Source: Mesoterricola silvestris
Lineage (GTDB): Bacteria > Acidobacteriota > Holophagae > Holophagales > Holophagaceae
Assembly: GCF_030295405.1 (NCBI RefSeq)
Contig: NZ_AP027080.1
Coordinates: 2,046,001-2,110,000 of the forward strand
Length of the DNA stretch: 64,000 bases
Reading direction: 5' to 3'
Shown in pieces: positions 8,082 through 20,768 of the stretch. The position numbers and the translations under genes are program-made. The notes under the pieces were generated by a model that saw only the letters and a program-made list of their open reading frames with translations, searched no databases and had not been told where the DNA came from. How positions within the stretch are numbered: the first letter of the stretch is position 1; each line of letters begins with the position of its first letter.

Positions 8082-8217
8082 GGTTTATTACCTCAATCGT
8101 GAATAAGACGAGGTGATATTGAGCCTTTTTCTCAACTATGGGAACCCAGCCATGGCAGGCGGAGTGCGGGCCGGCATGGCACGTGAAGCTTCTTAACCCA
8201 TCCTCATGAGGTGGTCC

Positions 8218-11200
8218 ATGCGATTCACCATCCGCAAGAAGCTGGCGGCTGTGGCGGCAACGGCCCTGGCCGGCATCCTGGTCCTGGCCGTGCTCAACCG
8301 GTACCAGACGGAGCGCGTGTACGACGCCGCCAGCTTCGGCAGCGCCACCACGGTGCCCAAACTGGTGGAGATCAACTCGGCCCAGGTGGCCATGGAGAGC
8401 ATCCGCAGGACGCTCTGGCAGCACATCGCCCAGGTGGAGCCGGGCACCCTGGCCCGCCTGGAGGGGCGGATCGCCGAGGATGAGGGCCGGGTGGCGAAGG
8501 GGCTGGACGCCTTCGAGCGGAACGGGGTCAGCGGCGACCAGGAACGCCGGCTGCTGGAAGCGGAACGGGCCTCCGTGCTCGCCTACCGCACCCTGGCGGA
8601 CCGGGCCCTGGCCCTTTCCAGGGCCGGCAAGAAGGCCGAGGCGAGGGATCTCCTCGCCGCGAACCAGACGGTCATCGACAAGCCGGCCATGGACTTCACG
8701 GCCCACAGCCAGTACAACTCGGATCTGGGCAAGAAGAACGCCGCCGACGCCGAGGCCATCAAGTCCAGCGCCGCGCTGCTCTCCCTGCTCATCACCCTGG
8801 CCACCCTGGTGCTCACCGGGGTCGTGGCGTACGTCATCGGCCTGGCCATCGTGAGGGCCCTGAGCTCCTGCGCGCACGTGGCCGACGAAGTGGCCAAGGG
8901 CGACCTTTCCGTGGAGATCCCCACCGTCACCGAGGACGAGACCGGCGAGGTCCTGGCGGCCCTGCGGCGGATGGTGGGCAACATGCGGGCCCTGGTGGAG
9001 GATTCGGTGCTGTTGAGCGAGGCCGCCGCGGCCGAACGGTTCGATCTGAGGGCCGACGGCTCGCGCCACGCGGGGGACTACCGGAAGATCGTGGACGGCT
9101 TCAACGGCACCCTGGACGTGGTGGTGGACAAGCTGGCCTGGTACCAGGCCATCGTGGACGCGGTGCCGTTCCCCATCCACGTCATCGACACGGATATGAA
9201 GTGGGTGTTCCTGAACAAGGCCTTCGAGAAGCTGATGATGGACCAGCACTACATCCGCGACCGCCAGGACGCCATCGGCAAGCCCTGCGCCACGGCCAAC
9301 GCGAACATCTGCAACACCGAGAAGTGCGGCATCATGCAGCTGAAGCGGGGCAAGGGGGAGAGCTTCTTCGACTGGTGCGGCATGAGCTGCAAGCAGGACA
9401 CCTCCAACCTGATCAACGTCAAGGGCAAGCACGTGGGGTACGTGGAGGTGGTGCAGGACCTCTCGGCGACCCTGCAGGTGGGCGACTACACCACGAAGGA
9501 AGTGGACCGCCTGGCCACCAACCTGGCCAAGCTGGCCTCCGGCGATCTGAACCTGGATCTCAGGACCCAGGACGCCGGCCAGCACACGGGGGTCGTCAAG
9601 CAGCAGTTCGAGCGCATCAACGCCAGCATGCTGCAGCTGAAGGGGGCCATCGACGCGCTGGTGGCCGATACCCAGATGCTGAGCGAGGCGGCCATCGCCG
9701 AGCGGTTCGACACCCGGGCCGACCTTTCCCGCCACGCCGGCGGCTACCGGCACGTGGTGGAGGGGATCAACGGCACCCTGGACGTGGTGGTGGACAAGCT
9801 CGCCTGGTACCAGGCGATCATCGACGCCGTGCCCTTCCCCATCCATGTCATCGATTCCGACATGAAGTGGGTGTTCCTGAACAAGGCCTTCGAGAGCCTG
9901 ATGATGGGCCAGCACTACATCCGGGACCGCCAGGACGCCATCGGCAAGCCCTGCGCCACGGCCAACGCCAACATCTGCAACACCGAGAAGTGCGGCATCA
10001 TGCAGCTGAAGCGGGGCAAGGGGGAGAGCTTCTTCGACTGGTGCGGCATGAGCTGCAAGCAGGACACCTCCAACCTGATCAATATCAAGGGCAAGCACGT
10101 GGGCTACGTGGAGGTGGTGCAGGACCTGTCGGCCACCCTGAACGTCCGCGACTACACCGCCAAGGAAGTGGACCGGCTGGCCGCGAACCTGGCCCAGCTG
10201 GCCAAGGGGGACCTGAACATGGAGCTCAGGACCCAGGACGCCAACCAGCACACGGGCCTGGTCAAGGAGCAGTTCGAGCGCATCAACGACAGCATGGGCC
10301 AGCTCAAGGGGGCCATCGGCTCGCTGGTCACGGATACGACCATGCTCTCCACGGCGGCCATCGACGGCAAGCTGGAGGTCCGCGCGGACGCCAACCGGCA
10401 CCAGGGCGATTTCCGGAAGATCGTGCAGGGGGTGGACGACACCCTGGACGCGGTCATCGGGCCCCTCAACATGGCCGCGAACCTCTTCGACCGCATTTCC
10501 AAGGGCGAGATCCCGCCCAAGGTCACCGAGACCTACAACGGCGATTTCAATACCATCAAGAACAACCTCAACCAGTGCATCGACGGCCTCCAGGGCCTGG
10601 TGGAATCCAACCAGGTGCTGCAGCAGCTCGCCACCAACGACTTCACGGTGCGGGTGCGCGGGAAGTACCTGGGCATCTTCGACGAGGTGGCCCAGGCCCT
10701 CAACGAGACCATCGAGAACCAGGCCCGGGTCCTCACCAAGGTCCAGGAGAGCGCCTTCGCGGTGGCCCAGTCCTCGGGCGAAATCGCCTCGGGCAACCAG
10801 GAGCTTTCGTCCCGCACCGAAGAGCAGGCCTCCAGCCTGGAGGAAACGGCCAGCAGCCTCGAACAGTTCACCTCCGTGGTGAACCAGACCGCCGAGAACG
10901 CCCGCACCGCCAGCGGCGCCGCCGCCCAGGCCCGCACGGTGGCCGATGAAGGCAGCAAGGCGGTGGAGCAGCTGGTGGGGTCCATGGACGCCATCAACGC
11001 CGCCTCCAGCAAGATCAATGAAATCATCAGCGTCGTGGACGAGATCGCCTTCCAGACCAACCTCCTGGCCCTCAATGCCGCCGTGGAGGCGGCCCGGGCC
11101 GGGGAGCAGGGGCGGGGCTTCGCGGTGGTGGCCACGGAAGTGCGCAACCTGGCCAAGCGCAGCGCCGACGCCGCCAAGGAGATCAAGAGCCTCATCAAGG

Positions 11201-11670
11201 ACTCGGTCACCAAGGCCCAGGATGGCCAGAAGGTGGCCACCCGCACCGGCCAGATCATCCTGGACGTGGTGTCCAATGTCCAGAAGGTGAGCGGGATCAT
11301 GGCCGAGATCGCCAACGCCACCCACGAACAGACCATGGGCATCGGGGAGATCAACAAGGCCGTGACCCAGATGGACGAGACCACCCAGCACAACGCCGCC
11401 CTGGTGGAGGAGGCCGCGGCCTCCGCCGAAAGCCTGGACCAGCAGGCCCAGAACCTGCGGCAGATGGTGTCCCAGTACAACCTCGGCGCCCAGGCCCGCC
11501 TGGGCACCGCCGCCCCCGCCCCGACCCGCGCCCCGGCCGGGAAGCTCCACGGGGAGTTCCACGGGGGGGCGGTCCCCCTCCGGAAGCGCCCCGCCAAGGG
11601 GGAGATCGCCGCGCCCAAGGCGCCCCAGGTCCCGCCCAAGGGGGCCGACGACGAATGGGAAAGCTTCTAG
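8218..11670 (+). CDS. Methyl-accepting chemotaxis protein with duplicated Cys-rich PAS domains
   Basis: Membrane chemoreceptor of 1150 residues signalling to CheA/CheW. TM1 is near residues 8-25, followed by a helical periplasmic domain and TM2 near 186-211. A HAMP domain and repeated HAMP-like units follow. PAS domains start near 306 and 528, each with five cysteines (C357, C365, C370, C387, C391 and C579, C587, C592, C609, C613). The C-terminal signalling hairpin has its tip at EIAFQTNLLALNAAVEAARAGE. The protein ends DEWESF, like the CheR-tethering NWETF pentapeptide. ATG 8218 is chosen for its AGGTG site; ATG 8206 is the alternative. First gene of the FliA-driven operon. Confidence 0.93.
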   Translation: MRFTIRKKLAAVAATALAGILVLAVLNRYQTERVYDAASFGSATTVPKLVEINSAQVAMESIRRTLWQHIAQVEPGTLARLEGRIAEDEGRVAKGLDAFERNGVSGDQERRLLEAERASVLAYRTLADRALALSRAGKKAEARDLLAANQTVIDKPAMDFTAHSQYNSDLGKKNAADAEAIKSSAALLSLLITLATLVLTGVVAYVIGLAIVRALSSCAHVADEVAKGDLSVEIPTVTEDETGEVLAALRRMVGNMRALVEDSVLLSEAAAAERFDLRADGSRHAGDYRKIVDGFNGTLDVVVDKLAWYQAIVDAVPFPIHVIDTDMKWVFLNKAFEKLMMDQHYIRDRQDAIGKPCATANANICNTEKCGIMQLKRGKGESFFDWCGMSCKQDTSNLINVKGKHVGYVEVVQDLSATLQVGDYTTKEVDRLATNLAKLASGDLNLDLRTQDAGQHTGVVKQQFERINASMLQLKGAIDALVADTQMLSEAAIAERFDTRADLSRHAGGYRHVVEGINGTLDVVVDKLAWYQAIIDAVPFPIHVIDSDMKWVFLNKAFESLMMGQHYIRDRQDAIGKPCATANANICNTEKCGIMQLKRGKGESFFDWCGMSCKQDTSNLINIKGKHVGYVEVVQDLSATLNVRDYTAKEVDRLAANLAQLAKGDLNMELRTQDANQHTGLVKEQFERINDSMGQLKGAIGSLVTDTTMLSTAAIDGKLEVRADANRHQGDFRKIVQGVDDTLDAVIGPLNMAANLFDRISKGEIPPKVTETYNGDFNTIKNNLNQCIDGLQGLVESNQVLQQLATNDFTVRVRGKYLGIFDEVAQALNETIENQARVLTKVQESAFAVAQSSGEIASGNQELSSRTEEQASSLEETASSLEQFTSVVNQTAENARTASGAAAQARTVADEGSKAVEQLVGSMDAINAASSKINEIISVVDEIAFQTNLLALNAAVEAARAGEQGRGFAVVATEVRNLAKRSADAAKEIKSLIKDSVTKAQDGQKVATRTGQIILDVVSNVQKVSGIMAEIANATHEQTMGIGEINKAVTQMDETTQHNAALVEEAAASAESLDQQAQNLRQMVSQYNLGAQARLGTAAPAPTRAPAGKLHGEFHGGAVPLRKRPAKGEIAAPKAPQVPPKGADDEWESF
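9001..10332 (+). repeat. Two-copy 666-bp tandem duplication inside the chemoreceptor gene
   Basis: Copy 1 (about 9001-9666) and copy 2 (about 9667-10332) are offset by exactly 666 bases (222 codons). Each encodes a HAMP-like unit plus a Cys-rich PAS domain. The stretch 9259-9416 matches 9925-10082 with one base difference over 158 bases, including synonymous positions. That implies recent duplication or gene conversion. A third, PAS-less HAMP-like unit follows from about 10333. Confidence 0.85.
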
Positions 11671-11691: not shown

Positions 11692-12186
11692 ATGTCCAGC
11701 GCCCAGACAACCACCTACCAGCAGGTCCTGTGCTTCGCCCTCGCGGGGGAGAGCTACGGCATCCCGATCCTGAAGGTGCGGGAGATCCAGGGCCAGGCCC
11801 CCATCACCCGCATTCCCAGGGCGCCTGACTACATGCCGGGCGTCATCAACCTGCGCGGGGCCATCGTCCCCATCGTTGAACTGCGCAAGCGCTTCAACCT
11901 CGGCGCGATCCAGGACGGCATGCGCCCGGTCATCGTCATCGTCGAAGTGATGTCCCGCACCCTGGGCATGCGCGTGGACGCCGTGTCGGACGTGCTCGAT
12001 CTGGACGAGGACCAGATCAAGCCCGCGCCGGACTGGGGCGCGGAGGGCACCGTGGGGAAGGAGTACATCGCCGGGCTGGCCACCGTCCCCAACGCCGAGG
12101 GGGGGGATTCCATGCTGATCCTCCTGGACCTGGACCAGTTGCTCAGCCTGGGTGATATCAAGGAACTGGAACAGGCCGGAGGTTGA
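11692..12186 (+). CDS. cheW: Chemotaxis adaptor CheW
   Basis: SH3-like scaffold of 164 residues linking receptors to CheA. The sequence FALAGESYGIPILKVREI, then TRIPRAPDYMPGVINLRGAIVPIVELRKRF, is the CheW core, and the C-terminal ILLDLDQLL is also typical. GGGAAGGAG precedes the ATG. It follows the receptor by 21 bases and is followed 4 bases later by the STAS gene. Confidence 0.95.
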   Translation: MSSAQTTTYQQVLCFALAGESYGIPILKVREIQGQAPITRIPRAPDYMPGVINLRGAIVPIVELRKRFNLGAIQDGMRPVIVIVEVMSRTLGMRVDAVSDVLDLDEDQIKPAPDWGAEGTVGKEYIAGLATVPNAEGGDSMLILLDLDQLLSLGDIKELEQAGG

Positions 12187-12190
12187 ACCG

Positions 12191-12520
12191 ATGACGCGAA
12201 AGCAGCGCGAGGAGCCGGGCCCCCCGGAGGCGGTCGCCCCCGGTCCGGGCGTCGATCTGGATATCTTCGGCATCCAGCCCTTCCTCAAGGACGCCCGGGA
12301 CTGGGTGGCCGGGACGGTGGGGCCGGTCCTGCGCCTGGATCTTTCCCAGGTGGGCGACCTGGACCTGAGCGGCCTCCAGGTCCTCCTGGCCATGGACCTG
12401 GCCCTCCGGGCCAAGGGCTCGGCCCTGGTGCTCCTGGGCGTCCGGGACGAGTGGGCCGCCCGCATGGAGCGGCTGGGCCTGGGCCAGCTGCTGGAAGGCG
12501 GCCGGAAGGTGGGCCCATGA
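12191..12520 (+). CDS. STAS-domain protein of the chemotaxis operon
   Basis: Small protein of 109 residues. About 20 unstructured N-terminal residues precede a STAS fold like anti-sigma-factor antagonists. LRLDLSQVGDLDLSGLQVLLAMDLALRAKG contains the DLSGL loop, where the serine is the phosphorylated position in SpoIIAA-like proteins. No cognate anti-sigma kinase is nearby; its place between cheW and a receptor-like gene suggests a regulatory role in this chemosensory system. ATG 12191 is chosen; its stop overlaps the next start (ATGA). Confidence 0.8.
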   Translation: MTRKQREEPGPPEAVAPGPGVDLDIFGIQPFLKDARDWVAGTVGPVLRLDLSQVGDLDLSGLQVLLAMDLALRAKGSALVLLGVRDEWAARMERLGLGQLLEGGRKVGP

Positions 12521-13587
12521 GGATCCGGTTCCCCTTCCTGAATGGGCCGGCCGGCGATCCCGTCGAGGCGACGGCGGTCCTGGCCCAGCCCGACGCGGCG
12601 GTGGTGGCGATGCTCCTGGCCGTGGCCCGGCAGGAGGCCGATGCCCTGGCCGCCAATGTGGCCTACGGCCGGGAGGAGGTCCTGCGGGTCCAGAGCCTGG
12701 TGAGCGACGCCGCCGACACCCTGGGCCGGGCCCTGCGGAGCCTCGATCTCAAGGTCCAGGAGCAGTACGTGCGGGTCCTGGCCATCCAGGAGGCTTCCTT
12801 CCTGGACATGCAGGGGGAGGCGCCGGGCGCCGGTAAGGCGCCGTCGGGCATCCTCGGGACGCTGGATTCCCTCATGAGCAACATCCTGGCCATCGCGGAA
12901 TCCATCCGCGAGGTGACGGCGGGGGTGGGGGAGGTGCAGACCCTCTCCTCGCGCATGGAGCAGAACCTGGGCGAGCTGGTGGAGATCGCCGCCCGCACCA
13001 GCCTCCTCTCCCTGAACGCCAACATCGAGGCGGCCCACGCCCGGAACTTCGGCGCGGGGTTCGCGATCGTGGCGGGGGAGGTGTCCAAGCTCGCGGCCCG
13101 GAGCACCGGCCTGAGCGACGGCATCCAGATCCTCATCCAGGAGACCAACAGGGCCCTGGAACGCACCGGCGGCCAGATCGGGGGCATCGCCAACCGGGAC
13201 CTGCGCATGGCCATGGATTCCAAGAACCGCGCGGAGGAGGCCGCCAAGGCCATCGAGGAAAGCAACGCCCGGGTGCGGGACCTGGTGGGCGAATTGAAGG
13301 TGGCCGCCCAGGAGATCGAGACCCAGGTGGGGCACGTGGTGCGGGGCATGCAGTTCGACGACCTGACCCGGCAGACCCTGGACCAGGTGCGCCAGGTCTT
13401 CACCAGCCTGGAGGCCAGGGCCGGGGCCTGGCGGCGCTGCGTGGAAGAGCTGGAGGCCCCGGACGCGGACCCCGCCGCCATCCTGGGGCGGCTTTCCGGG
13501 GCGCTGGGAGAACTGGACGAGACCTCCACCCGCCACCGCGCGGTGTCGAGCCGGGATCTCGTCGTGGGCGAAGTGGACCTCTTCTAA
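12517..13587 (+). CDS. Soluble methyl-accepting chemotaxis-like protein
   Basis: 356 residues with no transmembrane segment, mostly helical. Residues about 130-240 resemble a receptor signalling hairpin, but the tip is ARTSLLSLNANIEAAHARNFGAGFAIVAGEVSKLA. The canonical AGEQGRGFAVVATEVR pattern has changed at several positions, including loss of the AGE glutamate. The C-terminal part has GMQFDDLTRQTLDQV, resembling the QFQD-type motif of CheZ-like and soluble-receptor helices. It is likely a cytoplasmic receptor or array component. Coupled to the STAS gene by a 4-base overlap; cheY follows 9 bases after its stop. Confidence 0.75.
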   Translation: MRIRFPFLNGPAGDPVEATAVLAQPDAAVVAMLLAVARQEADALAANVAYGREEVLRVQSLVSDAADTLGRALRSLDLKVQEQYVRVLAIQEASFLDMQGEAPGAGKAPSGILGTLDSLMSNILAIAESIREVTAGVGEVQTLSSRMEQNLGELVEIAARTSLLSLNANIEAAHARNFGAGFAIVAGEVSKLAARSTGLSDGIQILIQETNRALERTGGQIGGIANRDLRMAMDSKNRAEEAAKAIEESNARVRDLVGELKVAAQEIETQVGHVVRGMQFDDLTRQTLDQVRQVFTSLEARAGAWRRCVEELEAPDADPAAILGRLSGALGELDETSTRHRAVSSRDLVVGEVDLF

Positions 13588-13596
13588 GGAATCGCA

Positions 13597-13959
13597 ATGG
13601 CCAAGACCATTCTCACCGTCGATGACTCCGTCACCATGCGGCAGATGATCACCTTCACGCTGGCCAAGGCCGGCTACGACATCCTCGAGGCCGGCGACGG
13701 CGTCGAGGCCCTGGCGGTGGCCGCCGGCAAGAAGCTGGACCTGGTGATCACCGACGTGAACATGCCGAACATGGACGGCATCACCCTCGTGCAGCGCCTG
13801 CGGGCCCAGGCGGGCTTCCGCTACACCCCCATCCTCGTGCTCACCACCGAATCCGGCCAGGACTTCAAGGTGCGGGGCAAGGAGGCCGGGGCCACCGGCT
13901 GGATCGTCAAGCCCTTCAGTCCCGAGAAACTCCTGGAAATCGTGGAAAAAGTCATCTGA
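13597..13959 (+). CDS. cheY: Chemotaxis response regulator CheY
   Basis: Single-domain receiver of 120 residues. It has the acidic pair D9/D10, the phosphoacceptor D53 in LVITDVNMPNMDG, T/S in LVLTTESG and the lysine in IVKPFSPEKL. With no output domain it should bind the flagellar switch or compete as a phosphate sink. It sits immediately before cheA. Confidence 0.95.
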   Translation: MAKTILTVDDSVTMRQMITFTLAKAGYDILEAGDGVEALAVAAGKKLDLVITDVNMPNMDGITLVQRLRAQAGFRYTPILVLTTESGQDFKVRGKEAGATGWIVKPFSPEKLLEIVEKVI

Positions 13960-13968
13960 GGTGAGGGC

Positions 13969-16062
13969 ATGGCCGACGCGATGGATGCCTTCAAGGAGAG
14001 CTTCCTGGAGGAGAGCACGGAGCTGGTGGACGGCATGGAGGCCGTCCTCCTGAAACTGGACTTCGCGAACCCCGAGGTGGAGGACCTCCATACCCTGTTC
14101 CGGGCCGCGCACTCCATCAAGGGCAACGCCGCCACCTTCGGGTTCCCCGCCATCGCCGCCTTCACCCACCAGCTGGAGAGCACCCTGGAGCCGGTGCGCC
14201 AGGGCCGCCTGGCCATGACCCCGGAACTGCAGGAGATCCTCCTGGGCGCCGTGGACGTGCTGCGCGCGCACCTGGGGCAGGCCCGGTCGGGGTCCGCCCT
14301 GCAGCCCCGGGACCTGGCCAACGAGGCCACCACCCTCCAGGAACTGGCCCGGCTCGCCCAGGGCACCGCCGCGCCCGCGGCCCGTCCCGCGCCCGCGCCC
14401 CCTCCGCCCTCCCTGGGCGCCTACCAGATCCGTTTCCAGGCCCCCCTGGACCTGTTCCGCAGGGGCATCAATCTGGAGCGCATCTTCCGCGACCTGGAGA
14501 AGCTGGGCACCGCGCGCTTCTGGCTCGACCCCGCGACCCTTCCGCCCCTGGACGGCCTGGAGCCCGAGGACTGCCACCTCCTGTGGAACATCCACCTGGA
14601 GACCGGCGCCCCCCTGGCGGATGTGGAGGAGGTCTTCGAATTCGTCAACGACGGAGCCAACCTCGCCATCAAGCCCCTCGATGAGAAGGCGGACCGGGTG
14701 CCCCTCCTGGGGGAGATCCTGGTGGGCAGCGGCGAGGTGAGCCCCCACCAGGTCCAGGACGCCCTGTCGCGCCAGGCCAACATCGGGGACCTGCTGGTGG
14801 AGATGGGCGCCGCGCGCCCCGAGGCCGTGGCCAAGGCGGTGGAGCAGCAGCAGAAGAAGCGCACCCAGGTGGAGGCGTCCACCCTGCGGGTGGCCACGGA
14901 CAAGATCGACAAGCTGGTGAACCTGGTGGGGGAGATCGTCATCACCCAGACCATGCTCGCCCAGAGCGCCCAGGAAATGGCCACCGCCCACGGCATCGCC
15001 CGGTTCAACGAGGCCCTGGTGGCCCTGGAACGGCTGACCCGGGAGCTCCAGGAGCGCGTCATGGGCGTGCGCATGGTGCCGGTGGAGATGATCTTCTCCC
15101 GGTTCCCGCGCATGGTGCGGGAGCTGGCCAAGCAGCTGGAGAAGGACGTGAACCTGGTCATGGAGGGCCAGGCCACGGAACTGGACAAGACCTTCATCGA
15201 GATGCTGGTGGACCCCATCACGCACCTCGTGCGCAACGGCCTGGACCACGGCCTGGAGCCCGTGGAGCAGCGCATCGCCGCCGGCAAGCCCGCCCAGGCC
15301 ACCCTTTCGCTCAAGGCCAGCAGCCGCGGCGGCAACATCTTCATCGAGATCCAGGACGACGGCCGGGGCCTGGACCGGCAGCGCATCCTGGCCAAGGCCC
15401 AGGAGAAGGGCATGGTGGCCGCCGATGCCCGCATGAGCGACGAGGAGGTCTACGCCCTCCTCTTCGAACCGGGCTTTTCCACCGCGGCCGCGGTTTCGGA
15501 TCTCTCGGGCCGGGGGGTGGGGCTGGACGTGGTGCGCCAGAACATCCGCGCCCTGGGGGGCCGCGTGGAGGTGGAGAGCCGCCTGGGCGCGGGATCCACC
15601 TTCCGCCTGGTCCTGCCGCTCACCATGGCGGTCCTGGACGGCCTGACGGTGCGCATCGGCACCGAGACCTACGTCTTCCCCCTGTCCCTGGTCCTGGAGA
15701 GCTTCAAGCCCAGGCCCGGATCCATCCAGTCGATCCAGGGCGACCGGCACGTCATCAACCTGCGCGGCTCCTTCATGCCCGTGCTGCCCCTGGAGGCCGT
15801 GCTCAGCCTGGGGGACCGGGACGGCGGGAGGGAAGGGGACGATCTGCTGGTGGTGGTGGAGAGCGACGGGCGCCGGGCCGCGGTGAGGGTGGACGAGGTC
15901 CTGGGCCAGCAGCAGGTGGTCATCAAGAGCCTCGACACGCACTACCGGAAGGTCCAGGGCATCTCCGGGGCCACGATCCTCGGGGACGGGAGGGTGGCGC
16001 TCATCCTGGACGTGGCCGAGCTGATCCACCTGGAGTCCTCTCCCCTCCCCGCCCCGGTCTGA
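13969..16062 (+). CDS. cheA: Chemotaxis histidine kinase CheA
   Basis: 697 residues. The P1 Hpt domain has the phosphorylated H48 in FRAAHSIKGNAA. After a Pro/Ala linker, a P2-like region (about 145-235) contains FWLDPATLPPLDGL. Residues about 244-296 have a paired LGEILVGSGEV...IGDLLVEMGAA motif, like the helical repeats at type II secretion ATPase N-termini. Then come P3 dimerisation (DKIDKLVNLVGEIVITQ), the P4 kinase (LVRNGLDHGLE, DDGRGLD, GRGVGLDVV) and a CheW-like P5. It is complete and catalytic motifs are intact. RBS GAGGTGAG precedes the ATG. Confidence 0.95.
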   Translation: MADAMDAFKESFLEESTELVDGMEAVLLKLDFANPEVEDLHTLFRAAHSIKGNAATFGFPAIAAFTHQLESTLEPVRQGRLAMTPELQEILLGAVDVLRAHLGQARSGSALQPRDLANEATTLQELARLAQGTAAPAARPAPAPPPPSLGAYQIRFQAPLDLFRRGINLERIFRDLEKLGTARFWLDPATLPPLDGLEPEDCHLLWNIHLETGAPLADVEEVFEFVNDGANLAIKPLDEKADRVPLLGEILVGSGEVSPHQVQDALSRQANIGDLLVEMGAARPEAVAKAVEQQQKKRTQVEASTLRVATDKIDKLVNLVGEIVITQTMLAQSAQEMATAHGIARFNEALVALERLTRELQERVMGVRMVPVEMIFSRFPRMVRELAKQLEKDVNLVMEGQATELDKTFIEMLVDPITHLVRNGLDHGLEPVEQRIAAGKPAQATLSLKASSRGGNIFIEIQDDGRGLDRQRILAKAQEKGMVAADARMSDEEVYALLFEPGFSTAAAVSDLSGRGVGLDVVRQNIRALGGRVEVESRLGAGSTFRLVLPLTMAVLDGLTVRIGTETYVFPLSLVLESFKPRPGSIQSIQGDRHVINLRGSFMPVLPLEAVLSLGDRDGGREGDDLLVVVESDGRRAAVRVDEVLGQQQVVIKSLDTHYRKVQGISGATILGDGRVALILDVAELIHLESSPLPAPV

Positions 16063-16064
16063 CC

Positions 16065-16961
16065 ATGGGTTCCCCCGGGGTCCCCCCGAACGGCCCGAAG
16101 GCCAGGCCCCCGGATGCCCCCGCGGGCCCGGGGGCGCCCCTGCCCGGGATGCCTTCGGCCCTGGACCCGAAGACCTTCGAGCGGCTGCGCACCCTGCTCC
16201 ATGCCCGCACCGGCATCCACTTGGGGCCCGGCAAGCTGCCCATGGTCCAGTCCCGCCTCAACCGCCGCCTGCGGCACCTGGGCCTGGGCACCTACCCGGA
16301 ATACCTGGCCTGGCTGGAATCGGACCCCGGCGGGGCGGAATGGACCGCCTTCATCAACGCCCTCACCACCAACCTCACCCGGTTCTTCCGGGAGGAGCAC
16401 CATTTCAGCAAGCTGACCCAGTGGCTCCGGAGCCTCGACCCGCTGCCCCGGCCGATCCGCGTGTGGTGCGCGGGCTGCTCCACGGGGGAGGAGCCCTACT
16501 CGGTGGCCATGGTCCTGCACGCCGAATTCCCGGGGAGCCCCGCGCGGATCCTGGCCACCGACCTGGATTCCGCGGTGCTCCAGGAGGCCCGCGCGGGCAT
16601 CTACGACCAGGCGCGGGTCAAGGATCTGCCCGCGGCCTGGCTGCGCCTGGCCTTCCTCAAGGGCCGGGGAGGGCAGGCCGGCCGGGTCCGGGTGCGCCCG
16701 GAGGTGGGCGCCCTGGTGGACTTCCACCCCATGAACCTGCTGGAGGGCAACTGGCCCGGGCCCTCCAGCTTCGAAGTGATCTTCTGCCGGAACGTGATGA
16801 TCTACTTCGACAAGGAGACCCAGCGGGAGATCGTCCGCAGGTTCCACCGCACCCTGGTTCCGGGGGGCCTCCTGATGGTGGGCCATTCCGAGTCCCTCAT
16901 GGACGCCTCCCTGGGCTTCGAATCCCTGGGCGGCACCGTCTTCCGCCGGCGCGACCCATGA
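16065..16961 (+). CDS. cheR: Chemotaxis protein methyltransferase CheR
   Basis: S-adenosylmethionine-dependent enzyme methylating receptor glutamates, 298 residues from ATG 16065. The first 28 residues are a Pro/Gly-rich stretch, so the in-frame ATG at 16149 (MPSALDPKTFERL) could be the true start. Motifs are NLTRFFREEHHF, the SAM loop RVWCAGCSTGEEPYSVA, FCRNVMIYFDKE and GHSESLM. Its probable docking peptide is the EWESF end of the receptor at 8218. The stop overlaps the cheD start. Confidence 0.93.
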   Translation: MGSPGVPPNGPKARPPDAPAGPGAPLPGMPSALDPKTFERLRTLLHARTGIHLGPGKLPMVQSRLNRRLRHLGLGTYPEYLAWLESDPGGAEWTAFINALTTNLTRFFREEHHFSKLTQWLRSLDPLPRPIRVWCAGCSTGEEPYSVAMVLHAEFPGSPARILATDLDSAVLQEARAGIYDQARVKDLPAAWLRLAFLKGRGGQAGRVRVRPEVGALVDFHPMNLLEGNWPGPSSFEVIFCRNVMIYFDKETQREIVRRFHRTLVPGGLLMVGHSESLMDASLGFESLGGTVFRRRDP

Positions 16962-17569
16962 GCCCCCGCCTTAAGCAGCCGGTCCCGGAAAGGGCGTCCC
17001 GGTACTTCGACCGGCATTTCCAGTGCCCGGCCATGAAGATCCTGCCGGGGGAATTCTATGCCACCGGCGCCGACGAGGCGATCGTCACGGTGCTGGGATC
17101 CTGCGTGGCGGTGTGCCTGTTGGACCCGGTCCTGGCCATCGGCGGCATGAACCACTTCATGCTGCCCATCCAGCCCGAGCCCCGCCAGGACGACCCCTAC
17201 TACGCCGCCCGGTACGGGGCCGGCGCCATGGAACTCCTCATCAACGAGATGCTGCACCTGGGCGCCGGGCGCCAGCGCCTGGTGGCCAAGGTCTTCGGGG
17301 GCGGCCAGGTGATGGCGGGCCTGAGCGATATCGGACAGCGCAACGCCCTGTTCATCCGGGATTTCCTCCGGGTCGAAGGCATCCCGCGGCTGGCCGAGGA
17401 CCTGGGCGGCAGCTTTCCCCTCAAGGTGTATTTCTTCCCCGCCACCGGCCAGGTCCTGGTCAAGCGTATCTCGAAGCTCAGGAACCGGACCCTCGTCCGG
17501 CGCGAGCAGGCCTATTTCGCCCGCCTGAGCCAGGGCACCGACGAACCCGATGTGGAGCTGTTCCCATGA
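16958..17569 (+). CDS. cheD: Chemoreceptor glutamine deamidase CheD
   Basis: 203 residues. Deamidates receptor glutamines to methylatable glutamates. The catalytic cysteine is in VTVLGSCVAVCLLDP and the histidine is in GGMNHFMLP; AKVFGGGQVM and the threonine-containing PATGQ segment also match the family. It overlaps cheR and cheB by 4 bases each. In systems such as Bacillus, CheD also binds CheC, but no CheC is present here. Confidence 0.94.
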   Translation: MSPRLKQPVPERASRYFDRHFQCPAMKILPGEFYATGADEAIVTVLGSCVAVCLLDPVLAIGGMNHFMLPIQPEPRQDDPYYAARYGAGAMELLINEMLHLGAGRQRLVAKVFGGGQVMAGLSDIGQRNALFIRDFLRVEGIPRLAEDLGGSFPLKVYFFPATGQVLVKRISKLRNRTLVRREQAYFARLSQGTDEPDVELFP

Positions 17570-18630
17570 CCCCCAAGCGCCGAGTCCTGGTGGTGGACGA
17601 TTCCGCCCTGGTCCGCAACATCCTGAAGGTGGTCCTGGCGGCCCATCCCGACCTGGAGGTGGTGGGGGAGGCGGCGGATCCCTACGAGGCCCGGGAGCAG
17701 ATCACCCGGCTCCAGCCCGACGTGCTCACCCTCGATGTGGAAATGCCGCGCATGGACGGCCTCACCTTCCTCACCAAGGTCATGCGCCACCATCCCATGC
17801 CCGTGGTGATGGTGTCCTCGCTCACGGCCCGGGGCACGGCGGTGGCCATGGAGGCCCTGGAGCGGGGCGCCGTGGACGTGGTGGGCAAGCCCGAGCACGA
17901 TCCGCTCCAGGGGCTGGAGGCCATGGGGCAGGCCATCGCCGAGGCCGTCCACGCGGCCTCCTACGCCCGGGTGCGGGTCCGCGCCCCGGCCGCGGCGGTC
18001 CAGCCCAGGCTCGGGCCGGACGCGGTGCTGCCCCTCCTTCGGCCGGGGCGCTCCCGGGCCCTGTCCGAAGTGATCGCCATCGGCAGTTCCACGGGCGGCA
18101 CCGAGGCCCTCAAGGAAATCCTCCCGCGCCTGCCCGCCGGACTCCCGCCCATCCTCCTGGTGCAGCACATCCTGCCCGGCTTCACCTCGGCTTTCGCCCG
18201 GCAACTGGACCGGCTCTGCCAAGTGCCCGTGCGGGAGGCCGTGGACGGGGAGGAACCCCAGGACAGCACCATCTACCTGGGCCCCTCCGATTACCACCTC
18301 ACCGTCGCCCCCCTGGGCAACGCCCTGCGCCTGCGCCTGGTGGGCGGCGCCCGGGTCAGCCGCCACCTGCCCTCCGTGGACGTGCTCTTCCGCTCCGTGG
18401 CCGTGGCCTGCGGCCCCAAGGCCCTGGGCATCATCCTCACCGGCATGGGGGACGACGGGGCCCAGGGCCTGCTGGAGATGCGCCAGGCAGGCGCCACCAC
18501 CCTCGGCCAGGACGAGGAGAGCTGCCTGATCTACGGCATGCCCCGCATGGCCCACGAGCGGGGCGGGGTCCAGAAACTGGTTCCCCTCAAGCACATCGCG
18601 AAGTACATCGTGGGGTGGAACCACGCCTGA
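17566..18630 (+). CDS. cheB: Chemotaxis protein-glutamate methylesterase CheB
   Basis: 354 residues. An N-terminal receiver has D11/D12 and phosphoacceptor D57 in LTLDVEMPRMDG. The C-terminal methylesterase has its triad in GSSTGG (Ser), QHILPGF (His) and GMGDDGAQG (Asp). It removes receptor methyl groups and is activated by CheA. It is the last gene of the operon, with 56 bases before the S46 peptidase. A CheZ, CheX, CheC or FliY phosphatase is not found in this operon. Confidence 0.95.
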   Translation: MTPKRRVLVVDDSALVRNILKVVLAAHPDLEVVGEAADPYEAREQITRLQPDVLTLDVEMPRMDGLTFLTKVMRHHPMPVVMVSSLTARGTAVAMEALERGAVDVVGKPEHDPLQGLEAMGQAIAEAVHAASYARVRVRAPAAAVQPRLGPDAVLPLLRPGRSRALSEVIAIGSSTGGTEALKEILPRLPAGLPPILLVQHILPGFTSAFARQLDRLCQVPVREAVDGEEPQDSTIYLGPSDYHLTVAPLGNALRLRLVGGARVSRHLPSVDVLFRSVAVACGPKALGIILTGMGDDGAQGLLEMRQAGATTLGQDEESCLIYGMPRMAHERGGVQKLVPLKHIAKYIVGWNHA

Positions 18631-18686
18631 ACCCCGGGGACTGGTGTACCATTATGCGAGGTATACACCCGTCCCCAGGAGTCCCC

Positions 18687-20768
18687 ATGCATTTGCGTTC
18701 CTCCGTCCTGACCGCCATGGCCGTGCTGCTGGCCGCTCCGGCCCTGCGCTCCGACGAGGGCATGTGGACCTTCGACAACGTGCCCGCCGCGCGCATGAAG
18801 GCCGCCTACGGGTTCGCGCCGGACGCGGCGTGGCTCCGGCACCTCCAGCTCGCCACGGTGCGCTTTCCCGGGGGCACCGGCGCCTTCGTGAGCGCCGAGG
18901 GCCTGGTCATCACGAACCACCACGTGGGCCGCAGCTCCATCCAGCAGGTGGCCACGGCCGACCGGGACTACATCCGCGGGGGCTTCACGGCCGCGGACCG
19001 GGCCCATGAGCTCAAGGTCCCGGGCCTGGAGCTGATGATGCTGGTCTCCACCCAGGACGTCACGGCCAGGGTGCGGGAGGCCGCCAAGGGCCTGCCCGAA
19101 GCGGAGGCCCTCAAGGCCCGCCGCAACGCCATCTCGGCCCTCATCAAGGCGGAGGAGGCCCGGACCGGCCTCACCTGGCAGGCCGTGAACCTCTACCACG
19201 GCGGGGAGCACTGGCTCTACGGCTACCGCAAGTTCACCGACGTGCGCCTCGTGGCGGCCCCGGAACTGCAGCTGGCCTCCTTCGGCGGCGATCCCGACAA
19301 CTACACCTTCCCCCGCCACAACCTGGACTTCGCCCTGTTCCGGGTCTACGAGAACGGCGCGCCCTACCGCCCCGAGGCCTTCCTGCCCTGGGCCACGTCC
19401 CCCCTGCGCAACGGCGACCTCACCCTGGTCTCGGGCCACCCGGGCACCACGTACCGCCAGGAGACCTTCGCCCAGATGAGCTACGCCCGGGACGTCTCCA
19501 TCCCGGCCCGCATCGCCACCCAGCTGCGCCGGCGCGCCGCGCTGGTGGCCTTCGCCGCCACCGGCGACGAGCCCCGGCGCATCACCGCCGACGCCATCTA
19601 CGGCATCGACAACGGCGTCAAGCGCATGGAAGGCATGCTCCTGGGCCTGCGCAAGCCCGGCAACCTGGAGAAGGTGGAAAAGGCCGAACAGGAGCTCAAG
19701 GCCCGGGTGGAGCGGGATCCCGCCCTCAAGGCCGCGGTGCTCCCCAGCTGGGACCGCATCGCCCAGGCCGTGAAGCGCCAGAAGGAGCTGCTGGGCGAGA
19801 CCTCGCTCCTGGCCGTCCGGGACGTGCTGGGCTCCGATTTCCTCCTCAAGGCCCTCACCCTGGTGCGCATGCCCGCGGAAGCGGCGCTTCCCACCGACAA
19901 GCGCCTGCCCGAATTCACCGACGGGGCCCTGAAGGCCACCCGGGACAAGCTCCTCAATCCCGCCCCCGTGCACCTGGACCTGGAGAAGGTGCGCATCGCC
20001 GAGGGCCTGCGCGAGGTCCTGCGCCAGCTGGGCGAAGGCCACCCCGCCGTGAAGGCGCTCCTGGCCGGGCGCACCCCCGAGGCCGCGGCCCGGGCCGCGG
20101 TGGACGGCACCGCCCTGGCCGATCCCGCCGCCCGCAAGGCCCTGATGGAGGGCGGCGCCCCGGCCCTGGCCGCCAGCAAGGATCCCCTCATCGCCTTCGC
20201 GCGGGTGCTGGATCCCCTCGTCCGCGCCGCCCAGGCCCGGCAGCAGGAGGAGGTGCAGAGCGTCCTGGACGAGCACGGCGGCCGCATCGCCGGGGCCCGG
20301 TTCCAGGTGTACGGCAAGGCCATCTACCCCGACGCCACTTTCACCCTGCGCCTCACCTTCGGCCCCGTGGCCACCTATCCCGCCAACGGCACCCTCATCC
20401 AGCCCTTCACCACCTTCTACGGGCTCTACGACCGCGCCATCGGCTGGGGCCCCGAAGCCGAGCACGGGGTGTGGTCCCTGCCCAGGCGCTGGTGGGACCT
20501 CAAGGACAAGCTGGACCTGGCCACCCCCTTCAACTTCGCCTACGCCTGCGACACCGTGGGCGGCAATTCCGGCTCCCCCGTGGTCAACGCCAAGGGCGAA
20601 CTGGTGGGCCTCAACTTCGACAGCAACATCGAGGCCCAGGCCGGGTACTACGTGTACGACGGCACCAGCAAGCGCTCCATCGCCGTGGACGCCCGGGCCA
20701 TCCGGGAGGCCCTGGTGAAGATCATGGACGCCGGCTGGGTCGTGAAGGAACTGGAAGGCTCGAAATAA
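18687..20768 (+). CDS. S46-family dipeptidyl peptidase (DPP7/DPP11-like)
   Basis: Exported serine exopeptidase of 693 residues that removes N-terminal dipeptides. The signal peptide is MHLRSSVLTAMAVLLAAPALRS, followed by DEGMWTFDNVP, the typical S46 mature start. The triad residues are visible: His in VITNHHVGRSS, Asp in GGDPDNYTFPRHNLDFALFR, Ser in GNSGSPVVNAKGE. ATG 18687 has AGGAG upstream; the in-frame ATG at 18654 would extend past the signal peptide. Specificity (hydrophobic versus acidic) cannot be read by eye. A terminator-like hairpin follows. Confidence 0.92.
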   Translation: MHLRSSVLTAMAVLLAAPALRSDEGMWTFDNVPAARMKAAYGFAPDAAWLRHLQLATVRFPGGTGAFVSAEGLVITNHHVGRSSIQQVATADRDYIRGGFTAADRAHELKVPGLELMMLVSTQDVTARVREAAKGLPEAEALKARRNAISALIKAEEARTGLTWQAVNLYHGGEHWLYGYRKFTDVRLVAAPELQLASFGGDPDNYTFPRHNLDFALFRVYENGAPYRPEAFLPWATSPLRNGDLTLVSGHPGTTYRQETFAQMSYARDVSIPARIATQLRRRAALVAFAATGDEPRRITADAIYGIDNGVKRMEGMLLGLRKPGNLEKVEKAEQELKARVERDPALKAAVLPSWDRIAQAVKRQKELLGETSLLAVRDVLGSDFLLKALTLVRMPAEAALPTDKRLPEFTDGALKATRDKLLNPAPVHLDLEKVRIAEGLREVLRQLGEGHPAVKALLAGRTPEAAARAAVDGTALADPAARKALMEGGAPALAASKDPLIAFARVLDPLVRAAQARQQEEVQSVLDEHGGRIAGARFQVYGKAIYPDATFTLRLTFGPVATYPANGTLIQPFTTFYGLYDRAIGWGPEAEHGVWSLPRRWWDLKDKLDLATPFNFAYACDTVGGNSGSPVVNAKGELVGLNFDSNIEAQAGYYVYDGTSKRSIAVDARAIREALVKIMDAGWVVKELEGSK

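Follow-up and report, generated by a model that had tools for sequence, protein, structure and literature searches.

Oxygen and redox chemoreceptors are known that sense through heme or flavin PAS domains. Among sensor kinases, those of the NreB/AirS type use cysteine-based Fe-S PAS sensing, with the four cysteines of NreB arranged as two CxxC pairs, and cysteine switches are known in PAS-containing kinases such as ArcB. OrpR, a sigma54 activator from Desulfovibrio vulgaris, reportedly carries a redox-sensitive [4Fe-4S] cluster in its PAS domain. In layout, the receptor analyzed here most resembles Aer2/McpB, the PAS/poly-HAMP heme oxygen sensor of P. aeruginosa, Vibrio, and Leptospira. In Aer2, PAS sits in line between HAMP domains, and the state of the cofactor is relayed through the HAMPs (PMC13401364, PMC3570549). 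The heme-ligating histidine is H234, and the Vibrio and Leptospira forms contain two or three serial PAS domains (PMC13401364). Our literature searches found no PAS chemoreceptor with a cysteine motif and turned up none with an Fe-S or metal-thiolate PAS domain.

Here we analyze a 64,000-nucleotide stretch of the Mesoterricola silvestris genome (hereafter, the window), which spans positions 2046001-2110000 of a 4.99-Mb single-contig genome. It encodes a receptor that we read as an Aer2-like HAMP/PAS protein in which the heme pocket would be replaced by a three-cysteine site, most likely Fe-S, that senses cytoplasmic redox state, with PAS modules kept alike by gene conversion. We put the probability of this reading at roughly one half.

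A HAMP/PAS chemoreceptor at the head of a che cluster

The receptor gene is an open frame encoding 1154 aa (window 8206..11670; this and all other features described lie on the forward strand). Pfam identifies MCPsignal (4.8e-49), HAMP_2 (2.1e-48), 4HB_MCP_1 (5.6e-13), HAMP (2.9e-12), and PAS_4 (3.4e-10) domains, and the MCP signaling domain scores 166.9 bits against a curated cut-off of 34.6, marking the product as a methyl-accepting chemotaxis protein. A four-helix-bundle ligand domain (4HB_MCP_1; aa 7-184, 8224..8757) comes first, with hydropathy indicating hydrophobic stretches around aa 12-31 and 189-219, and is followed by a membrane-proximal HAMP domain (PF00672; aa 212-261, 8839..8988). 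Two 222-aa HAMP-PAS copies come next. The first pairs a HAMP_2-type unit (9013..9138), recognized by its motif and by a repeat family (D3) with spacings of 666 and 666 bases, with Cys-PAS module 1 (aa 312-423, 9139..9474). A HAMP-like linker and a second HAMP_2-type unit, the motif of which starts at 9679, occupy 9475..9804, where the flanks have diverged, and separate this module from Cys-PAS module 2 (aa 534-645, 9805..10140). Both modules were delimited by their PAS_4 matches and cysteine positions, and module 1 also by an AlphaFold2 model. A third HAMP_2-type unit (aa 731-795, 10345..10590) keeps the same 666-base period, with its repeat copy at 10384, but has no PAS after it; the Pfam HAMP_2 match falls in three stretches. 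The MCP signaling, or kinase-control, domain follows (PF00015; aa 904-1059, 10915..11382).

Like Aer2, this MCP has its PAS modules flanked by HAMP domains in a HAMP chain, and, like the Vibrio and Leptospira forms, it has several of them in series. It differs from Aer2 in its periplasmic 4HB domain, in the near-identity of its PAS modules, and in having three invariant cysteines in place of the heme His and Trp. Serial PAS domains have a precedent; the novelty lies in the three-cysteine site and in the homogenized copies. The initial annotation had called the protein a chemoreceptor with tandem intracellular Cys-rich PAS modules. The signaling domain and the linked che genes bear out the first part of this description, and both module copies are indeed present and cytoplasmic.

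The C-terminal residues EWESF (11653..11667) resemble the CheR/CheB-tethering pentapeptide, and we predict this function by likeness to NWETF of E. coli. Related receptors at four loci of Holophagaceae MAGs (L018, L019, L020, and L084) end in QWESF or EWESF, that of another Holophagaceae genus (G052) ends in EFTRF, and those of Clostridium end in EFGKY.

Downstream of the receptor gene, Pfam assigns CheW (11692..12186; 8.5e-37), CheY (13597-13959), CheA (13969-16062), CheR (16065-16961), and CheB (within an ORF at 17023-18630, start uncertain), so the receptor heads a che cluster. Between CheW and CheY lie a STAS-domain protein (12194-12520) and an MCP-signal-domain protein (ORF 12451-13587, start uncertain), and this pair (12194-13587) occupies the same place at L020 and L084. 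A Peptidase S46 gene (18750-20768, in ORF 17550-20768; Pfam 1.7e-187) sits just downstream of the cluster. Che genes also adjoin the receptors of G052, of G051 from the same genus, of G252, of C. thailandense, and of a Treponema MAG, and Holophagaceae MAGs share the che cluster (CheA 61%, CheY 76%, CheW 66-68%). The idea of a locus common to the genus of the window was not borne out: other members gave only about 42-46% CheA matches, without the module.

Three invariant cysteines in the PAS modules

The cysteine spacing noted initially, C-x7-C-x4-C-x16-C-x3-C, is correct in both copies. The cysteines are residues 361, 369, 374, 391, and 395 in module 1 (codons beginning at 9286, 9310, 9325, 9376, and 9388) and 583, 591, 596, 613, and 617 in module 2 (9952, 9976, 9991, 10042, and 10054). 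The five do not, however, behave as the single motif that had been proposed. Among 57 aligned modules, gathered from about 1000 genomes and a first set of loci and 17-94% identical to the window copy, the only invariant columns are P22, N38, C62, C70, and C75. The first three cysteines (C62, C70, and C75; C-x7-C-x4-C) are each present in 57/57, an invariance partly ensured by sampling, since the profile was built on cysteine-bearing modules with a score cut of 72. The fourth position is cysteine in 18 of the 57 and spans 15 residue types, and the fifth is cysteine in eight. That these two cysteines, equally in the seed, did not persist argues that the triad is not merely a selection effect; judged from the alignment, the fourth and fifth are lineage-specific. 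All 57 modules and both window copies belong to what we define as the chemoreceptor branch of a three-cysteine PAS group, with C-x7/8-C-x3/4-C between E-alpha and F-alpha.

An AlphaFold2 model of the module based on the 57-sequence alignment, which replaced an earlier one from 17 close sequences (pLDDT 62.6), has a mean pLDDT of 93.1 and a predicted PAS topology. With elements named by order, it contains an N-cap helix, A-beta (25-29), B-beta (33-37), C-alpha (39-47), D-alpha (54-57), E-alpha (62-65), F-alpha (76-81), G-beta (86-91), H-beta (94-104), I-beta (110-119), and a C-terminal helix. On this predicted secondary structure, C62 starts E-alpha, C70 falls in the E-F loop, and C75 lies just ahead of F-alpha. 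C92 occupies the turn between G-beta and H-beta, and C96 is among the first residues of H-beta.

Searching the PDB with the sequence of one module gave no significant match, and we found no solved structure holding the three-cysteine motif. The best profile match of the PAS is that of Aer2 (3vol, 9.7e-7), which is also the top Foldseek match of the model (3.4e-6). The fold by itself does not point specifically to Aer2, because many PAS folds tie within Z 1-2 in VIA-align. In the profile alignment, the second cysteine lies three residues before, and the third two residues after, the histidine of FHKNP, which we take to be heme ligand H234 by our own reckoning of the numbering offset. In the window modules, Glu and Val stand at the positions of this histidine and of what is presumably the O2-contact tryptophan, placed with the same assumed offset (3vol/4hi4). 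CxxCH is absent from the whole 1154-aa receptor, as the initial annotation had it, which sets the protein apart from the c-type heme MCP sensors GSU0582/GSU0935, and the window modules lack the two CxxC pairs of the NreB/AirS-type Fe-S PAS.

Sigma54-dependent activators in Holophagaceae have a homologous PAS that scores about 42-55 bits against the A2 profile and has its cysteines, spaced C-x7-C-x3-C, at matching profile positions. They differ from the window receptor in being transcription regulators with a single PAS and a C2-C3 spacing one residue shorter. This PAS was seen at L189-L199, in about a dozen Holophagaceae genomes.

The three-cysteine PAS is greatly expanded in three genomes (G439, G729, and G819; loci L105-L158) that share the class of an Eubacteriaceae MAG, with eight or nine matches in each. 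One receptor at L114 (G252:C192) carries two different three-cysteine PAS domains in tandem (823-1203 and 1456-1860), of the CGI type and a diverged CPC type. The module of a Treponema MAG receptor (L046, 4457-4876) groups with the Holophagaceae modules, which suggests horizontal transfer or a misbinned contig.

Candidate cofactors and signaling

A metal, Fe-S, or thiol site in the PAS modules is plausible from the sequence, and we favor an Fe-S cluster. A strictly conserved cysteine triad that lacks a conserved fourth ligand would fit a cluster in which one site is open or exchangeable. In addition, carriers of the modules include clostridia and other anaerobes, and OrpR is said to provide a precedent for a cluster in the PAS of a sigma54 activator. 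The putative cysteine-based sensing also recalls the NreB/AirS-type kinases, although the window receptor controls chemotaxis and has a different motif, C-x7-C-x4-C with two further lineage-specific cysteines.

The triad could instead work without a metal, as a thiol switch: oxidation of the cytoplasm would lead to a disulfide between two of its cysteines, or to their reaction with an oxidant, and the PAS would relay the change. Three invariant cysteines with no fixed fourth ligand are compatible with such a switch, and the cysteine switches of PAS-containing kinases speak for it. A disulfide needs only two cysteines, however, and three invariant ones at nearly fixed spacing, found also in the sigma54 regulators, better fit a cofactor, which makes the switch an unlikely reading. 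We likewise give little weight to a site for zinc or another single metal ion, whether structural or sensing metal levels or oxidants. The short cysteine spacing near a loop would accommodate one, and Cys391/613 might provide the fourth ligand here, with D, H, N, or water doing so elsewhere; yet structural zinc sites usually keep four ligands, and the fourth position varies over the 15 residue types noted above. An Aer2-like PAS that binds heme, perhaps through a cysteine as axial ligand, is very improbable. Its appeal is that the heme PAS of Aer2 is the nearest relative of known structure and that the HAMP-PAS-HAMP setting is the same, but the Aer2 His and Trp are replaced, the receptor has no CxxCH, and heme needs only one ligand, leaving three invariant cysteines unexplained.

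On the Fe-S reading, the membrane-anchored receptor would read the cytoplasm through two serial PAS modules in the HAMP chain, and the signal would run linearly, as in Aer2, to the kinase-control tip. The E-alpha/F-alpha region of each PAS, site of the heme histidine in Aer2, would use its three invariant cysteines to hold an oxygen- or redox-labile metal center, most likely an Fe-S cluster. The fourth cluster ligand would differ by lineage and in the window gene may be Cys391/613. We infer cofactor, signal, response direction, and conversion in the window gene within this scheme, in which loss or oxidation of the center would displace the PAS and flip the HAMP chain, with a change in the CheA activity of the linked che cluster, while within-gene conversion would keep the PAS modules alike as the HAMPs diverge. 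It is a more speculative step to suppose a distinct and previously undescribed receptor class common in anaerobes, the Fe-S counterpart of Aer2, that senses redox with serial, conversion-homogenized three-cysteine PAS modules and tunes its sensitivity through their number and sameness. If the triad does hold an Fe-S cluster, it would represent a third kind of redox taxis in clostridia and other anaerobes.

Gene conversion in related receptors and its likely role in the window gene

The repeat unit of the window receptor is 666 bases (222 aa) and contains one PAS and HAMP-type units. The 666-base offset reported initially is exact, base by base: a 300-bp direct repeat (8963-9262 and 9629-9928) is 80% identical with the frame intact, far above chance. 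Identity between the copies, given as nucleotide/amino acid, is 73/65% in the preceding HAMP, 88/90% in the N-terminal part of the PAS, 99/100% in its core, 92/95% in its C-terminal part, and 83/75% in the following HAMP. Around the cysteines, base-by-base comparison of a 158-base stretch (9259..9416 in copy 1, 9925..10082 in copy 2) finds one mismatch, a synonymous GCG/GCC difference at 9303, and 113 bases (9304-9416) are fully identical to copy 2. This too agrees with the earlier description of a single difference, synonymous sites included, between diverged flanks. We rejected an assembly duplicate: many flanking bases differ, the genome is a single contig, and homologous receptors have two or three modules at 222-aa spacing.

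The duplication had also been described as recent, which we could not uphold. The same 222-aa period occurs in Clostridium and in another Holophagaceae genus, and the 5′ flank (9001-9195) has 16 synonymous differences against 17.7 expected at saturation, an expectation that, like those below, allows for the strong codon bias that inflates synonymous identity between the copies. Further along, we observed 5 synonymous differences against 20.4 expected at 9196-9460, 7 against 16.4 at 9461-9660, and 1 against 12.9 in the 52 codons of the core. Because the 5′ HAMP flanks are synonymously saturated, the duplication itself may be old; a young appearance is confined to the PAS core.

The initial annotation attributed this pattern to gene conversion focused on the PAS core and called for aligning homologues to see whether copies are more alike within genomes. 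Among the relatives, G052 has three modules spaced exactly 222 aa apart, G051 has two that lie on different contigs, and four Clostridium species have two each at a spacing of 222 or 313 aa. Between C. carboxidivorans and C. drakei, HAMP flank sites favor orthology over within-genome pairing by 48 to 0, whereas PAS sites split 6 to 5 (Fisher p 9e-5). The HAMP count places the module duplication before the species split. Between orthologues, PAS and HAMP show no difference in synonymous rate (p 0.1 to 1), so a generally slow PAS rate is not the source of the homogenization. In G052, synonymous differences between module pairs are 0.08-0.13 in the PAS core versus 0.31-0.51 in the HAMPs (p 0.023 down to 5e-6), and the PAS copies form one clade (95/95). 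The PAS copies of C. muellerianum (L014) are sisters (87/85), and its first pre-PAS HAMP clusters with the HAMPs that come first in the two other species (82/99). PAS-focused gene conversion is well supported in these relatives, both in the C. carboxidivorans/C. drakei pair and in the three-module Holophagaceae receptor. A literature search for gene conversion in chemoreceptors returned nothing on point. The arrays offer a clear example from nature in which conversion is limited to a sensor domain and the adjoining signal-relay domains diverge.

For the window gene itself, the near-identity of the PAS core might be explained by one duplication followed by purifying selection and codon bias, without any conversion. 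Tests on this gene alone were not significant, whether by run length of the synonymous trough (p 0.15 and 0.08), by a likelihood scan that pays for the post hoc choice of stretch (p = 0.07), or by comparing synonymous differences in PAS and HAMP (Fisher p = 0.083). Codon bias is strong, and in the tree both HAMP flanks, too, pair within the gene. An explanation without conversion must nevertheless account for a saturated 5′ flank beside a core with a single difference, and in G052 and Clostridium conversion is plainly seen; we consider the conversion-free explanation possible but doubtful. Conversion in the window gene is suggestive from the gene alone (p about 0.07-0.08) and is made likely by the relatives, where the original proposal stands.

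Receptors at the four loci mentioned above share features with that of the window: all sit before CheW and end in WESF, and the C-terminal halves of the L018 and L020 proteins are about 47-50% identical to it. Their arrays differ from it. L018 has HAMPs and one different three-cysteine PAS, C-x8-C-x4-C-x-C. In L084 (3566-7489), L019 (1-3138), and L020 (3-2162), numerous nearly identical HAMP units of about 91 aa are strung together, and the available sequence, N-terminally incomplete for L019 and L020, shows no three-cysteine PAS. These HAMP units have apparently been homogenized like the PAS modules, and the head receptor of the che cluster appears to gain, lose, and homogenize modules.
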